From NCBI GenBank assembly GCA_900095095.1, contig FMBT01000318.1, positions 124,001 through 188,000 on the forward strand: a stretch of 64,000 bases of DNA, given 5' to 3'. The stretch is from Fragilariopsis cylindrus CCMP1102 (taxonomy: Eukaryota; Bacillariophyta; Bacillariophyceae; Bacillariales; Bacillariaceae). Positions 56,140 to 64,000 of this stretch are shown here, in pieces. Within the stretch, counting starts at the first letter, position 1; each line of letters starts with the position of its first letter. A program made the position numbers and the translations under genes. Below the pieces are notes generated by a model. That model was not told the DNA's origin, searched no databases, and saw only the letters and a program-made list of their open reading frames with translations.

Positions 56140-58502
56140 ATGGGAAAGCGAAGCAAACAAAATGATACGAAAAGGGGAGCAAAACCTAGCAAGAAAGATG
56201 ATAACAGATTCGAGAACGACGACGCAATAGAAGAGCGTTTCGCCGCAGCTGAGACTCGTCCTCAATTCCAAGCTCCAAAACAAAATTCCTCAAAAATTGT
56301 TCTTGACGAAAGGTTTTCATCTGTTCTGACTGATTCACGTTTTCAACTTCAAGAAAAGGATAAGTATGGAAGGAAGAAAAAGAAAAATGAACGAGCTGCG
56401 GCGAAGGAGGACCTCGAGTCGTTTTACGTCGTAGAGAATCAAGAGGAAAAGAATGAGAATGGTTCTGACGAGGATAATAAGAAGCCTGAAGCTGATAATG
56501 ATAGCGACGAATCGGATGAATCAGACGGCGAAGACGTAGATGACGGTGAAAAAATTGAAGATCCTGAAAAAATTGAAGACCCTGTTTCGAGAATCGCATA
56601 CCTCACTGCCTTTTCGAGGGGTGAATTAGACGGCTCGTCGTCTTCAGAGGATGATGATTCTCTCAGTCATCCGATGAAGACGAAGATGAAGAAGGGGAGG
56701 ATCCAGTGTACGGAACAGCTGGTGTGTTGGATCCGTCAACGAACAACGAAGAAGGAATAGAATTATCATATGATTCTTCTCCCTACTTAGTTGTCACCAA
56801 TATGGATTGGGAGAACATCCGAGCGGTTGATCTTTTTTCTATTCTTTCTAGCTTTGCCCCTCCTGGAGGTATAAAAAAGGTGCAAATATTTCAGAGCGAC
56901 TATGGTATGGAACAAATGGCGAAAGACAAGGTTCTTGGTCCAACCGGTATCTGGAAAAATAATAAGAAAATTAGTAAGCAAACAGTTTCGCACGATGCCG
57001 ATTCTGGAGAAGATTCCGAAGAAGAACATAGTAGCGACGACGATGATTCAGATAACGAAGATAGTGAAGATAGTGAAGCCGACTCGAATTCTGACGACCA
57101 AAATCTCCCTGACGAATCTGATTTTGATTCAGAAAAACTTCGTTCCTACGAAGCATCCAAATTAAAGTATTATTTCGCCGTGACTGAATTTTCTCATGCT
57201 GATCATGCCGATATAATCTATCGCGAGGTAGATGGAATGGAATTCGAGCACTCTAGTACAGCGATCGACTTGCGAACTCTTCCCAAAGATGATCTAGAGA
57301 GTGTTATCGCTAATCGTCCCATGCGAGATGAAGCTACGTCAGTACCGGGAAAATATGAGCCGCCAGAATTCGTAGTTAGTGCCCTTCAACAAACAAAAGT
57401 ACAATGCACTTGGGATCAGGGAGACAAGGAAAGAGAAAGAAAACTAACTAACTATGGTAGTACTGGATGGGAAGCTAGCTTTGAGGCGGACGACTTAAAG
57501 GCTTACCTTGCATCGGACGGTTCTAGCGATGAGGACTCGGACAGCGATAATGAAGGAAAATCTGATAAAAGATCTCAGATGCGAAAATTGCTGGGTCTAG
57601 AAAATGACAGTGATGATTACTCGAATGGACACAGTCAGTCGTCGAAAGCGTCTAGTGACGACGACGATGACAGTGACGATGAAGAAGAATACGGTGATGA
57701 TGGTGGTGAAGGTGACAAAATGTCCAAAGAACTCAAAATTATACCAGGTAAAAAAGACTTGGAGGAAAGGATCCGGTCCAAATTGAAGCCAAAAGAAGAA
57801 ACGGCAGAGCTTACACCTTGGGAAAAGTACCAGGAGAAACGTAAGCAAAAACGAAAAGACCGACGACAAGCTTCCCGTGGGAATAAAGATGGTTCGACCA
57901 AGGATAGTAAAAATGGAAATACTCGAGTGAAGGATAAAGATGACTTCTTCGCGAACAGCGATGAAAGCGACAATGACGAAAAGTTCCAACCAGAATTGAA
58001 CAAAAAAGAAACGAACAATAAAAATTCTTCATCTAAAGAAGATAAGGCAAAAGCAGAACTCGAATTGTTATATGCCGGCGAGCACGAAGACGAAGAGGCC
58101 AGGGATTATGATATCCGTGGCATTCAACGAATGGAGAAAAACAAGGGAAAGAAACTTACTGGGTCGAGAAAACGAAAGGAAGCTAAGATTGCCGCAGATG
58201 TTTCTGGTTCCAGCTTCAAGGTCGACACTAAGGATAATCGTTTTCAGGCAGTTTTGGATGGAAGTGATGCTCGTTTCGGAATTGATAAAACAGATCCAAG
58301 TTTCAAGGATACGTCTGCAATGCGTGAGATTATATCTGAACAGAATATGAGGCGAAAGAACAAACGCCAGAAGAAAGCTCAACCGATGGAAAATGCGGTT
58401 CCAGATGTTAATGCCGACAGTTCGAAAGGAGTGAAGACAAGTGGAGCAAATGCCTTGAGTTTCCTTGTGCAAAAGCTTAAGTCTCGGGTAGGTAAAAATT
58501 AA
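56140..58502 (+). CDS. ESF1: ESF1-like pre-rRNA processing factor
   Basis: Nucleolar ESF1, needed for 18S rRNA maturation. The N-terminus has the repeated ERFSSVLTDSRFQ and KDKYGRKKKKN blocks, then acidic tracts. The conserved core is YLVVTNMDWENIRAVDLFSI, SSFAPPGGIKKVQIFQSDYG and KLKYYFAVTEFSHADHADII, then DKERERKLTNYGSTGWEASF. The C-terminal NUC153 motif is FKVDTKDNRFQAVLDGSDAR followed by FGIDKTDPSFKDTSAM. Many Asp/Glu/Ser tracts separate the blocks, as usual in this family. The frame changes once near 56640-56670 inside an acidic stretch; both frames encode parts of the same protein (the second continues as EDPVYGTAGVLDPS). Stop at 58500-58502. Confidence 0.92.
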
Positions 58503-59018
58503 ATAGACAAATGATTTGCTGTTGCATATCCAAAAACTAATTTCTATAGATACCAAAGCATCAAAACGATTTTTTTCCTTCTAGTCCTAAAACTAAGGTG
58601 ATGCTCTGAAAAGAACCTCGACATCCTCTCTCTATATATCGTTAATTGGGAACACACTGAAAATGGATTGAAAACACCCGCCTTCAGTAAATTGACTATT
58701 TATCGATGGATATGGATCAAATGATTAGTTCTTGACTTGCAAATATTCAATACGATAACGTTAGATGAGATGAATAATTATTTATAGTTAATAATTCTTA
58801 ATAAATGTTTGATTTAGCAATTATAAGCAAATCATTTTTTCGGATTGGTGAATCTTACTCAGACTTGACTCCCACTATCATAGTATTGAGACGAGAGCAT
58901 TGTCAAAAGTATGTACTAGTATAGTTTCCCACTATTAGCATATTACCAGGTAACACAATGTTGTTACCGTATGATTCTATGGTATTAATGATATCACACT
59001 CGGCTATTGAAGGGGGGG
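58503..59018. other. Spacer before the transposon
   Basis: 3' flank of ESF1, AT-rich. It ends at a run of 13 G at 59012-59024, an unusual homopolymer in this sequence. Confidence 0.4.
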
Positions 59019-59025
59019 GGGGGGT

Positions 59026-59238
59026 CATTGAATTCAATGACTTTTGATTTTTGTTATTTTGCCATAACTACTTAGACGTTGCCTATAACACTGCAACGGA
59101 TAGAAAGCTCTTTGTATGTAGTTTATCAAACACCCTTCCATTGAATTCAATGGTAACGGTGTTGATGTGTTACTAAGTTACTGTATGAAGTACACCCCAA
59201 AACTGAAAAAGTGGCAATCATTGAATTCAATGACCATA
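59026..59238. repeat. Cluster of TTGAATTCAA palindromes, transposon end
   Basis: Three perfect palindromes: CATTGAATTCAATG at 59026-59039, CCATTGAATTCAATGG at 59138-59153 and CATTGAATTCAATG at 59219-59232. The last belongs to the 19-mer ATTGAATTCAATGACCATA (59220-59238), which recurs exactly at 63982-64000. Position just outside the transposase C-terminus suggests subterminal transposase-binding sites. Confidence 0.7.
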
Positions 59239-60209
59239 GGACTTGATTAAGTATCTCAACAAGCAAAACAGATAGCACTTCCAATCAAAGACAACTTTTA
59301 CACAACTTTTGATTCTAAAGAGATCTATACCTTTACTTTTAGCTACATTAGAGTAGAACCATGATTGTATTGTGATCAAATCTAGAAAATCCTGATAGGG
59401 CATGATGAACATGTAACACATGGTATGATGTACAATAGAATGTTCCCGGATCACAGGAATAGAACGTACAAGGCTGCGTTGTACAACCGGTGCTGCAACA
59501 AACCTGTTGATATGAATTTCTACAATTTTTTACCCAATCTTCCCTTACATTCCACTTACTACAATTTTTGGGTGCACTTGTTAATACATGATTGTTTGCC
59601 GTTGCTTGTCTTGGACTTCGTCTCGGCTTGCTGTTTCTATCCTCTACTCCATTCTTTTCATCCTTATTTTTCATTATTTCTATTGACAATCTTCTCCTGA
59701 ATGCATGAAAATACATTATGCCCACTTTATTCCATACCCAATGTCAAAAGCAAAGAAATGAAATGCATTGACTTCAGATGCAGCAAGAAAGAAAGCAAGC
59801 ACACGTGGAACCCATCAGTGTGCTTTCCATGTTTCTTCAATGGACAGCCGCATATTGCACAAGTGATTGTTGTCATCAACACAATGCCAAAAGTCAAGAT
59901 TATCTGCTATTCGAATTCAACTTTGTTACCATTCGCTATCGTCCTCCTTGCTTTCATTCTTTGACGCATAGGGGGGCAGTTACTACCATATGTTGCCATT
60001 ATCTTCATCACATAATCTTCTTCTTTCATACAAAAGATACCATACGATATGCCATCAAGCACCCTATGTAGAACATCTGTCTTTCCAACTTCATAATCAT
60101 AACAAAATTGTTATGAGTAGTATCAACAATAGTTTTTTATTGCTACTGTATACTTAAACCTTATATTAAGATTTAACTATTTTAACTATACAATAGCAAT
60201 GAAAAAGTG

Positions 60210-60230
60210 ATATATATATATATATATATT
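60210..60230. repeat. (TA)n microsatellite at cargo junction
   Basis: A TA run directly abuts the GC-rich Twinkle fragment and marks the junction between transposon sequence and insert. Confidence 0.85.
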
Positions 60231-60620
60231 ATCAAACGGTTGTCGCAGCCTGCCCCTCCAGGTATTGCCCCTCTTGGAGCGATTCGAAAAAATCATTCTC
60301 TGGATGGACAGCGACGAGCCCGGCAAGGAAGGTGCCCAGAAGTTTGCCAAGAAATTGGGAGTCAACCGCACATATATAGTCCATTGCCTCGAGGCGAAGG
60401 ATGCCAACGATGCCCTGCTGATGGGCGACATCGATATGCAGGCGTGTGTCGACGAGGCGGAGTTGCTCCCGCACGACCGAATCGTCACCTTTCGGGATTT
60501 GCGAAAGGACTTTTTGAAAGAACTCCTGGAACCGGACCTGTACTCGGGGACGGCGATTCCGAGCCTTCCGCGGTTTACGCAGCTGATCAAAGGATTCCGT
60601 AGGGGAGAAATCAAAGCAAC
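60229..60620 (+). pseudogene. Fragment of a Twinkle-type mitochondrial primase-helicase gene
   Basis: Reads without interruption as a mid-piece of Twinkle/T7 gp4-like protein: CRSLPLQVLPLLERFEKIIL leads into WMDSDEPGKEGAQKFAKKLG (TOPRIM acidic site), KDANDALLMG, then VTFRDLRKDFLKELLEPDLY and the linker IPSLPRFTQLIKGFRRGEI. It stops exactly where the helicase P-loop should begin and is followed by unrelated sequence (KATNPSR). The N-terminal primase part, the helicase core and a start codon are missing. The 60 bases at 60301-60360 contain 34 G or C (57%), against about 32% just outside the insert. It is a captured gene piece, not a working gene. A single exon of a spliced donor gene would fit its sharp ends. 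Confidence 0.8.
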
Positions 60621-60781
60621 AAATCCATCGAGATGCAAGTCCAACCCCTTACTCAGCAAATCAAACATAACTAGAATTCGTGGGTATATAACGATGGTAC
60701 CGTCTAATGTTGAATTGGTTTGCCTCTATTTATACCCATTGCTTTCGTAGAACTACTTGTATTTAATAGAACCAAACAATG

Positions 60782-62050
60782 TCAGTACCTTATGATATCG
60801 TTCAGTTTCGACGGGGGGACAATATAGGATGGTGCACCAAACAGGGACTGGCCGATCAGGTTGGGAGCAATCCAGTTCGCAAACACCAGTACCAACACTA
60901 CCGAAAGCGTTCCAAACACCAGAGGTAGGTTGGCTTCGAGGTCGTCCTCCGACTGGCCCTCGATGTACATAGGATCCATCATTCCCGGAACCGACCTCCA
61001 TGGCAGCGATTCGGTCACGAGGTCTTCCCAATACTTGTATTGCTGTCGCGCGTTTGTGTTACTGCCATTCAAGGATAGACTATCATTATCGCCATTTCTC
61101 GTGTTCCCTTGCTTCCCTCCACCATCGATCCAATACTCCGGCGGTTTGCGGGCGACCTCCAAAAAGAACTGTAAGTCCCTCGCACACAACCGGTTCGACA
61201 CAGCTCCCCGGTTCAGGTCCTGCGCGTAGGCCAGATCCTCGGTGATGGATTTGATCTTTTTTGTTTTGGTGCAGTTTTCGTCGCCACCATTCTTTTCCTC
61301 GCGAAACTCACAGGTCGCTGTCCCCTCGATACAGGCCAGCGGCACCCTGAGTTTCCCCGTAGCAACCGCATCGGCAAAGAGCCTTCCCAGGGCCGAATAG
61401 GAAAACTTTCGAACCTCGGATACCTTGTCGGTATAGGGTCGAAAATCGGGTGTCCATCCCGGGATGGTTTCCGAAAGGGACACCAACCACGAAACGGACG
61501 GATCGATGTAGGTGACGTTCCACCGCATCAGAAGGGTTGTCGGCGAGACGGTAGTGGATACGGAGGTTTTCAACCGGACCTGTCGCAATCGCAGCGAATC
61601 ATCCTCGTTCGCGTCGATGCCAAAATCATCACCGTCCACTTCGGTTCGGAAATCGCTTTCCCATTGCTCGATGCTACGCTCAAGCTGGTCTCGGCCCACG
61701 ATTCTTGTGCTGGTGGCGCGCTGGAAGAATACGACCTCATCGTCGTATTCAAACGAGGACGGAAGACGGGGAATCATTCCGATGGTTGTGGAGGATACTT
61801 TCGCTCTTGTTTGGGACTGTTGGTATTGGGGTTGTGGTGGCCGAAACGCCGATACACCTCCACCCGTAGCTGCAACAGAGTGGCGGTCAACAGAGTGGCG
61901 GTCAACCGTGTTGATGGTACCACCACAACGGCCGGGACGTTGTGTGTGCAACACCAGTAAACACAGCACAAGCCTTGCTGCTGCCGATACTAGCAATCCA
62001 AAGGACCATGACCGTCGCAAGGACTGGGGCAACATAATCATCGTTGTCAT
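60782..62050 (-). CDS. Predicted plastid-targeted membrane protein, possibly NTF2-like
   Basis: Uninterrupted frame of 422 residues from ATG 62050. The N-terminus has a hydrophobic signal (FGLLVSAAARLVLCLLVL) followed by GVSAFRPPQ, the diatom plastid cleavage motif (here VSA-F). The body contains SFEYDDEVVFFQRATSTRIV, GRDQLERSIEQWESDF, LKTSVSTTVSPTTLLMRWNV and WEDLVTESLPWRSVPGMMDP. The Y.D.VVF..P-like start and the later MRW strand resemble SnoaL/NTF2-like domains (DUF2358 type) of plastid proteins. One membrane span is near the C-terminus (LVFGTLSVVLVLVFANWIAP). The line 61141-61200 has 34 G/C of 60 (57%) and codons are GC-ending, unlike every other gene here. It lies wholly inside the decayed transposon. 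Function unknown; the gene looks intact. Confidence 0.65.
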   Translation of the reverse strand: MTTMIMLPQSLRRSWSFGLLVSAAARLVLCLLVLHTQRPGRCGGTINTVDRHSVDRHSVAATGGGVSAFRPPQPQYQQSQTRAKVSSTTIGMIPRLPSSFEYDDEVVFFQRATSTRIVGRDQLERSIEQWESDFRTEVDGDDFGIDANEDDSLRLRQVRLKTSVSTTVSPTTLLMRWNVTYIDPSVSWLVSLSETIPGWTPDFRPYTDKVSEVRKFSYSALGRLFADAVATGKLRVPLACIEGTATCEFREEKNGGDENCTKTKKIKSITEDLAYAQDLNRGAVSNRLCARDLQFFLEVARKPPEYWIDGGGKQGNTRNGDNDSLSLNGSNTNARQQYKYWEDLVTESLPWRSVPGMMDPMYIEGQSEDDLEANLPLVFGTLSVVLVLVFANWIAPNLIGQSLFGAPSYIVPPSKLNDIIRY

Positions 62051-62095
62051 GTATGATATAGTACGATGGATGAATGAATTATCATTATCAAACAA

Positions 62096-62285
62096 TCATC
62101 TGAGTTGGATTTATTTGAGATTTTCTTTTGTTGATGGATCTGTGGTACGTGTACGGTAGCAGTAGACAAACTCCTACTAGAAGTAGTACGTACGAATAAT
62201 CAATCGGATGAGTCGAACACGCGATCATCAAAAAGAAGTCAGTACTGTACATCTTTTCTTTATGATTGCACCTGCATACAAACCA
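62096..62285. other. Right flank of the insert
   Basis: Upstream region of the intact cargo gene, up to the point near 62285 where the transposase frame (DSGFFVLKAL) resumes. It would hold the cargo gene's promoter. The exact junction is not visible. Confidence 0.4.
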
Positions 62286-63847
62286 CTCCTCTTCAAATTA
62301 ATAAGAGCTTATAGTACAAAAAATCCACTATCTTCTCAGAGTGCCAGATAAATTGTGTCAGTCTTGCTAGTAGTGAACTTGTTTTGCCTTCCTCCTTTTC
62401 ATATTGGTGTACATAATCTTCCAGTGTGTCTTTTCCCATTACAATTTTTTGCATAAAGAATAGTAGTAACGCTGTCAGCAATAGTATGATACTCATTACC
62501 TACTGGATGTGGTTTTCTTGGACAAAAGACATATCCTGGACATGTCCATCATATGTTCCATATTGATATTGATTCATCTAAGCAGCTGACCCAAGATATC
62601 TGTCCTGCATGTTTTCATTCCATGCAGAAATAAGATTTATCATTTTCCAGAAAGGATCGCTTTGATTAGGTGTACTTGTTGTAGTAGTGAGACAACTCAT
62701 AATCTGTTGAAATTGGTACTCGGGCGGGCATGAACTGATTCAATTGATATGGTGCACCTGCCTCTAATGATATTGGTTCAGATGAAAAGAATTCGCTAAA
62801 GCATGACATAAAAAAATTGCAACCAAGGAAGCGCACAAAGTCACCCAACGACAATTGACTGTGTGCTTGTCCTACTAAGGTCTTGCTTGTTTCTATCACA
62901 ATAAGATTCTCGAGATAATTGAAAGGAAAGAACAATAGAAACACATCAAGCTTTGATAACTTTCTAAGATTGTTCTTGGTATAGTCCTTGATTTGAGGTC
63001 TTACATTAGTATGATTTACGGATTTTCGATGACAAGTGCCACCCCATCCCTGCTGGAATGTTTTCTGGTGCAGGTTCGTTATCGTCATCAACATCTAATC
63101 CTTGACTTCAAGCCAAAGCAATGTCTTCACTTCTTGAACCTGAGCCACCCATGTCAAGAAGAGAAGTGTCCATTGGTTTCCACAGATCATCAGGTGTAAA
63201 AGTTGGTGCATTAGTAAAGAGAGGCAAGTCTGTTTGTTTTTGATCAAAGTAGCCATCAGCTTCACCCTCAACCGTAACTTTTGCATATTGTTGAGCACAA
63301 TAGATCAAGTTACCACCGAATGAATCATGCTTCACAACAATACAAACTTTTGGTTTTCTTTTTATATTCCTTATTTCTTGACTCACAACAACACAATCGT
63401 GTAGTTGTTGTTTATGTTCACAACCATTTATAGGTATGACTTGATCAATCTTTTTTGTTGAGGATATAAGTACTTCAATAGAATGCTGCAATGAGTACCA
63501 ACGCCCTGTTGCTTGCGTTTTTTCTGGGGGGGGAATGGCAAAAAAACTATTTTAAAGTTGTGCGTGTTGTACTGCTACATCTATTGCAAAACTATCAAAG
63601 TTGTCAGAGATTGAGCTCATTGTGATTGGGAGACAAATGGGAAGGAGACCTTATATTCAAATATTGGTTCAAAAGCATCAGAACGGAAGGTATGTTGTAT
63701 TTAAACAATTGGCAAGTGTTTCTTTTTTGAATTTTTTGAAATATTACAAATTATGGCGAATTAGTGCGTGCCAATTGCGTAGTTTTTTGTTGACACTATT
63801 ACTATTCAATCACAGTTTATTTAGAAAGGTTCACCTAAAGTAAAAAT

Positions 63848-64000
63848 TGATGAATTCAATTAGAATGTAATTGATGCCAATAGTATGATAGGTATTTGTC
63901 CAAGGAAGAAAGTCATTGAATTCAATTAACTACAGTAGATCTCGAAGTTTTATTTTTCTCCTACATCGATCCGCAAGCAAAATTGAATTCAATGACCATA
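63848..64000. repeat. Second cluster of TTGAATTCAA palindromes
   Basis: CATTGAATTCAAT at 63914-63926 and ATTGAATTCAATGACCATA at 63982-64000, with a related ATTGATGAATTCAATT near 63846-63861. They mirror the cluster at 59026-59238 on the other side of the transposon. The 19-mer is in direct, not inverted, orientation to its partner. Confidence 0.7.

Follow-up and report, generated by a model that had tools for sequence, protein, structure and literature searches.

A gene-bearing DNA block within a decayed piggyBac-like transposon of Fragilariopsis cylindrus: a landing site rather than a carrier, and possible capture of diatom DNA in break repair

At the right end of a 64,000-nucleotide window of the genome of the diatom Fragilariopsis cylindrus CCMP1102 (contig FMBT01000318.1, positions 124,001 to 188,000; C139:124001-188000 in the 67.9-Mb, 818-contig assembly that was searched), past an ESF1-like gene at 56658-58499, a decayed piggyBac-like transposon is split by a 2-kb block of DNA carrying a scrap of a gene for the mitochondrial primase-helicase Twinkle and a complete open reading frame (ORF) with features of a plastid protein (Table 1; positions are those of the window unless stated otherwise). 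The genome gave 27 exon-level matches to silicon transporters, all above the cut-off (best 757 bits), in line with a diatom; of 14 control genomes one gave a signal, which stayed below the cut-off. The block replaces a short piece of the transposon and bears no marks of transposition, and both of two haplotype contigs carry it. For this DNA the transposon served as a landing site, not as a carrier. On balance we lean towards the view that the block is DNA of a diverged diatom, captured during the repair of a break and thereby landing in the transposon.

An earlier note on this DNA had described the transposase gene as collinear with its family on both sides of the block and split by it, and comparison with other copies of the element bears this out. 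The genome holds at least 34 matches to the right flank of the block (62286-64000) and at least 19 to the left flank (58503-60200), and both flanks are matched at six non-allelic places (on contigs C78, C619, C245, C103, C516 and C523), besides two allelic ones. Four of these siblings, C78, C619, C245 and C103, reach the junction from both sides (on the left to 60109-60110, on the right from 62252), all without the block. In C516 and C523 the element is interrupted by a gap at the junction; the left and right matches there lie about 110 and 146 bp apart, which shows only that a 2-kb block is absent. Because C619, C245 and C103 (L014, L016 and L017) have sequence and flanking DNA in common at 91-100% identity, the four siblings amount to about two independent copies; this pointing to haplotypes or a segmental duplication of roughly one locus, C78 would be the second. 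The junction comparison covered 14 loci on the plus strand, L018, L024 and L046 giving no row owing to strand or low similarity. Read on the minus strand, the siblings have the end of an exon followed by the donor GTATGT, then an intron rich in AT and the acceptor CAG, as judged by inspection of these putative splice sites.

In the window, the left flank extends to about 60231, where it ends in an AT repeat within the putative intron, and the right flank, an exon, resumes at about 62253; these limits refine the 60190 and 62285 previously given for the split. The block stands in place of 44, 46 and 47 bp of the siblings on C619, C245 and C103, respectively (the rule used for this count was not applicable to C78), and the sequence lost comprises the end of a transposase exon and its 5′ splice site, the GTATGT donor. 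Apart from the block, the acceptor side has lost sequence near 60109 and gained a stretch rich in AT. No target-site duplication was found at the block, the longest word common to the two junction neighbourhoods being 4 bp, and no terminal repeats were found at its ends. At the left junction the window reads CAAACGG, against AAAACAA in the siblings and CGAACGG in the native Twinkle gene, so that an overlap of 3-4 bp (a short CAAAC/AAAAC at most) is possible. The block thus has the small deletion, the lack of target-site duplication and the junctions of end-joining type that characterise break-repair filler, and the small target loss without duplication, together with the joining of apparently unrelated pieces, suggests end joining with captured DNA.

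The only full second copy of the block, at C51:7132-9188, is allelic, 100% identical over the 2057-bp query, and has the same junctions. C51:1-17982 aligns to C139 at 53124-71084 as counted from the window start (the window itself ends at 64000); the identity is 99.71%, and a further piece extends the alignment to C51:20854, for about 20.8 kb in total at 99.7%. The two contigs differ by a 24-bp indel, by single-base changes and, past the end of the window, by one replaced stretch, which gives C51 the appearance of a true second haplotype. In the replaced stretch, about 57 bases of C139 (71084-71141, counted from the window start) correspond to about 16 on C51 (C51:17982-17999). A search of the genome with the left flank found no block-free allele, and the whole genome gave three matches to the block, none other being on a block-bearing element.

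Both a Twinkle fragment on the plus strand and a complete ORF on the minus strand, as the earlier note had reported, are present in the block. The fragment matches the Pfam family Toprim_2 (28.1 bits, cut-off 22.1) and two solved Twinkle helicases in PDB (one of them 8e2l, E 4.9e-13). Its homology ends before the helicase P-loop (GPTGAGK), and with only the Toprim end and the linker left it is a gene fragment, not a Twinkle gene. The scrap is inert. Its best genomic match is one exon of the native Twinkle gene on C88, at 71.5% nucleotide identity; C88 holds the only other Twinkle sequence, no second Twinkle or remnant of one being found elsewhere in the genome at E values up to 1. Fragment and C88 exon align over 125 codons without gap or stop, with 98 identical and 27 differing amino acids. 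The 107 nucleotide differences fall on codon positions 1, 2 and 3 in the numbers 24, 12 and 71, corresponding to a proportion of synonymous differences (pS) of 0.78 (66.3 of 84.7 sites; saturated and beyond correction) and a nonsynonymous divergence (dN) of 0.155. Under a neutral null of 107 random changes (two sets of 5000 runs each), about 67 amino acid differences arose on average, with minima of 55 and 53, third-position differences reached at most 50-51, and 2.5% and 10% of the runs were free of stops. Against this null, the 27 amino acid and 71 third-position differences observed indicate that the divergence accumulated mostly in a working gene. The source gene of the fragment, then, diverged mostly under purifying selection, and its truncation came late in the course of that divergence.

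Saturated synonymous sites combined with few amino acid changes rule out that the fragment is a decayed copy of the native C88 Twinkle. Beyond 60611, in the middle of the exon, the Twinkle homology gives way to different sequence, as would also be seen in one segment that had lost an internal part. An intron was also considered as the cause of this end and rejected, as there is no GT donor at 60611 and the native exon continues to GPTGAGK.

The difference in composition remarked on previously is evident for the block as a whole, which has a G+C content of 51.1% (51-55% in its 1-kb windows) against a background mean of 39.0% (standard deviation 3.2, maximum 49.4%) in 233 half-overlapping windows of C139, C51 and C88, C51 partly repeating C139. 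The excess is nevertheless confined to the coding parts, with 55.4% in the Twinkle fragment and 54.0% in the ORF. The G+C content at third codon positions (GC3) is 0.71 in the fragment versus 0.35 in the native Twinkle stretch, and 0.62 in the ORF; in 31 local open frames it averages 0.34 (standard deviation 0.06, maximum 0.545). These 31 frames, unverified as genes, extend from stop to stop over at least 250 codons and served as a host codon model, under which the fragment scores −1.38 per codon and the ORF −1.37. All 31 host frames score higher in leave-one-out comparison (lowest −1.22, mean −1.11), placing the codon usage of both pieces outside the sampled host range. Both pieces, then, have non-host codon usage. 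When scored with the codon table of the ORF the fragment reaches −1.11, beating all 31 host tables (best −1.26) and a uniform table (−1.19), and the ORF under the fragment table (−1.26) beats the tables made from 125-codon pieces of every one of the host frames (best −1.31). Codon usage would support a common source of fragment and ORF from one direction of this comparison. The strongest codon-usage outlier among the host frames sampled is an alpha/beta-hydrolase/esterase frame on C88 (L010:7823-9049), which lies some 750 bp away from the exon of the native Twinkle and has the GC3 of 0.545; it could be acquired or highly expressed.

The ORF lies in an open frame of 437 codons (60785-62095, minus strand); when 60614-62250 was shuffled 500 times by dinucleotides, the longest frame obtained had 256 codons. 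Its product has an N-terminal hydrophobic stretch leading to VSAF/RPP, and a C-terminal hydrophobic helix. VSAF/RPP after a hydrophobic stretch resembles what we take to be the targeting site of a diatom bipartite plastid presequence, and the product is probably a plastid-targeted membrane protein. Because the frame is open and has its own upstream DNA, the ORF may be expressed. Within the presequence region, at 61873-61902, there is a perfect 15-bp tandem duplication, CAACAGAGTGGCGGT, which adds five residues in frame. The protein matched no family in Pfam or NCBIfam, had a single match in PHROGs (E 0.34) and none better than E 0.076 in PDB, and its single-sequence AlphaFold model is weak, with a mean predicted local distance difference test (pLDDT) score of 37.7. 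Except for the allele, nothing in the genome matched the full protein at E values up to 0.001. Its 239-residue core gave two matches, at C559:3600-3914 (E 0.23) and on C789 (E 2.9); the former was rejected as a native homologue, as it appeared low-complexity when inspected. The search for parent genes that had been suggested earlier gave a mixed result: the native Twinkle exon on C88 is intact but has diverged too far to have been the immediate source, and for the ORF no parent was found.

In the course of events that we favour, a double-strand break would have occurred in an old piggyBac-like element that was probably dead by then, within the AT-rich intron of the transposase gene. End joining would have closed the break with the loss of about 45 bp and with free DNA ligated in as filler. 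This filler, most likely nuclear DNA of a different diatom that is well diverged and uses GC-rich codons, would have consisted of at least two pieces, the 377-bp Twinkle scrap and a segment comprising the complete gene and its upstream region. Break repair as the route and a foreign donor are both what we infer from the traces left in the DNA. That neither a second Twinkle nor a further copy of the ORF turned up in the genome counts in favour of this course. It is tempting to go further, and to propose that raw nuclear DNA of another diatom genus was taken up and fixed by break repair, leaving a whole foreign plastid-protein gene with its upstream region in a dead transposon on both haplotypes, the adjoining scrap of a donor helicase being a sign of non-selective uptake at the DNA level; this fuller proposal is tentative, and we would not call it probable. 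The earlier idea that a segment from a GC-richer genome had landed in an old transposon, the better fitting of the two put forward, is in keeping with the codon usage and with the selection signature of the Twinkle fragment; it does not hold in that the non-coding parts of the block are not GC-rich and that the block is not one intact segment.

Several observations weigh against a foreign donor. Two scans each of IMG/VR and GTDB by short exact peptide patterns found no relative, these being viral and prokaryotic and not diatom collections. The spacer and the upstream region (37.1% and 36.2% G+C) are like host non-coding DNA, and the dinucleotide signature of the block is ordinary (delta* 0.095, compared with a mean of 0.072 and a maximum of 0.185 in 58 host windows). 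The frames of the host codon model come from few contigs and were not verified as genes, and the ORF under the fragment table does no better than under a uniform table (−1.25). One local host frame, that of the C88 esterase, reaches a GC3 of 0.545, which together with the host-like G+C content of the non-coding parts makes a native GC-rich gene possible. The main rival explanation is native relocation, in which the scrap would derive from a lost ancient Twinkle paralogue and the ORF would be a native single-copy gene that was moved by break repair and whose original copy disappeared. The host-like non-coding parts and the host frame with a GC3 of 0.545 speak for it, a genome without another ORF copy is what would be expected of a moved native gene, and codon usage common to both pieces, which would argue for one donor, is only partly supported. 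This explanation requires, however, that both a second Twinkle and the parent copy of the ORF were lost, the former without a remnant detectable in the genome at E values up to 1, and it has to accommodate two pieces whose codon usage lies outside that of 31 of 31 sampled host frames. We consider it unlikely, if still a serious contender.

The proposal in the earlier note that the element captured genes as cargo, in other words that it took up gene DNA and could move it in the manner of Pack-TYPE elements or Pack-MULEs, fares less well. The block does lie between the terminal-repeat-like arms of the element with a gene fragment inside, as captured cargo would, and the element, once loaded, may have made one move, to its present place. 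Yet the four junction-examined siblings are without the block, C516 and C523 have room for only the short stretches given above between their flank matches, and no other block-bearing element is found among the three genome matches. The full block occurs only on C139 and the allelic C51 and not at any non-allelic site to which it might have been mobilised, and its insertion removed the 5′ splice site of the transposase gene. The fragment has moreover diverged too far, and under too much constraint, for a copy of the native Twinkle, and no sufficiently close host parent of the supposed cargo was found. Cargo is on these grounds improbable. An artefact of assembly or culture, with the DNA of a contaminating diatom misjoined into the contig, would suit a short block with non-host codon usage; it is a shade less probable again, given that the block and its junctions are identical on two separately assembled haplotype contigs which differ allelically from each other. 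That the block is a mobile element in its own right might be suspected from a discrete 2-kb insertion within a transposon, but the block has no terminal repeats, no target duplication and no non-allelic full copy, target DNA was lost, and neither of its two frames matches a transposase or reverse transcriptase, which makes this the least probable of the explanations considered.

The landing element itself can be assigned to the piggyBac superfamily by a match to the Pfam piggyBac transposase domain DDE_Tnp_1_7 at 62326-62748 (C139:186326-186748 in contig coordinates), with 29.1 bits against a cut-off of 22.4; the siblings on C245, C103, C619 and C78 score 55.5, 33.1, 31.8 and 30.3 bits, respectively. 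Its outer limits were set where sibling similarity stops and are approximate, with left-end matches starting at 59012-59025 and the longest right-end matches ending at 63994-64010. The two arms at these ends form an inverted repeat in all 16 of 16 positions; the same word of 14-16 bp recurs inside the element, and the ends of siblings vary. No pair of TTAA sites was recognised at the inferred ends in the termini inspected, the exact ends being uncertain. A G run of variable length is present at the left end (59012-59024 in the window) in six of the seven copies compared, which include the window, L044, L046, L047, L050, L021 and L045; the copy on C159 (L045) is without it. The 3′ part of the transposase gene, the tail of which we take to be cysteine-rich, is 86.9-89.5% identical to C245 and C619 (59968-60110) and C103 (60010-60109), and 77.5% identical to C78 (59012-60109). 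The adjoining stretch is in our reading an intron remnant, judging from the GTATGT and CAG borders in four siblings. Its extra AT-rich bases at 60130-60205 are flanked by what appears by eye to be an imperfect inverted repeat (ATTGCTACTGTATA / CTATACAATAGCAAT), and they are possibly a tiny foldback element.

Table 1. Features of the split transposon and of the block within it (window positions)
Feature	Position	Strand	Remarks
Inserted block	60235..62252	.	2.02 kb; replaces ~45 bp of sibling sequence including 5′ splice site
Twinkle (mitochondrial primase-helicase) fragment	60235..60611	+	377 bp; Toprim end plus linker; truncated within the exon on both sides
Spacer	60612..60781	.	37.1% G+C; Twinkle homology over, join at ~60611/60612
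Intact intron-less ORF	60782..62050	-	422 amino acids from first Met (62050); stop TGA 60782-60784
ORF upstream / putative promoter region	62051..62252	-	36.2% G+C (measured 62057-62252)
Decayed piggyBac-like element	59012..63999	-	~3.0 kb without block; outer limits approximate
Transposase gene, 5′ part	62253..63551	-	stops and frameshifts; holds DDE_Tnp_1_7 match
Transposase gene, 3′ part	59348..60110	-	presumed cysteine-rich tail
Putative transposase intron remnant	60111..60231	-	3′ splice site deleted; extra AT-rich sequence; AT repeat at end
Left terminal-inverted-repeat-like arm, GGTCATTGAATTCAAT	59023..59038	+	at end of G run
Right terminal-inverted-repeat-like arm	63982..63997	-	16/16 complementary to 59023-59038

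The passage of genes between algae has been argued mostly from gene trees. If capture from another diatom is the true origin of the block, a scar at the DNA level, with its junctions and a passenger fragment of no use, would speak for a physical route in which free DNA is taken up and joined in at breaks, with no virus, plasmid or transposon to carry it, and dead transposons would gain importance as sites in which foreign genes can safely settle and be retained. Should the block be native instead, it would represent the ordinary relocation of a gene. A survey of the literature on piggyBac and other transposons, gene transfer and Twinkle in diatoms, and on gene capture and break repair, mostly judged by titles, showed no case like this one among the titles listed.

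The element resembles members of the piggyBac superfamily in its DDE_Tnp_1_7 domain, which scores above the curated cut-off, and in its inverted terminal-repeat-like arms; it differs in being decayed and in that the TTAA target duplication was not recognised. With Pack-TYPE transduplication (PMC13317346), the block has in common a gene fragment between the ends of a DNA transposon, whereas here there is no close host parent, the transposase gene is interrupted and no mobilised copies were found. Transfer of ice-binding proteins among polar algae, including a suggestion of this for diatoms, has been argued from trees (PMC9756366). The likeness lies in the movement of genes between algae; the evidence in that case consists of trees of adaptive families, and in the present one of a physical scar in which the scrap of a gene adjoins an ORF, and no tree. 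Insertions of several pieces by end joining have been described for organelle DNA (numts, nupts and mosaic numins; PMC6215612). Such filler DNA is similar to the block in its small deletion, in its lack of target duplication, in junction homology that is short at most, and in the joining of apparently unrelated pieces; unlike organelle filler, the pieces of the block derive from nuclear genes, probably those of another species, and one of them carries a complete ORF.

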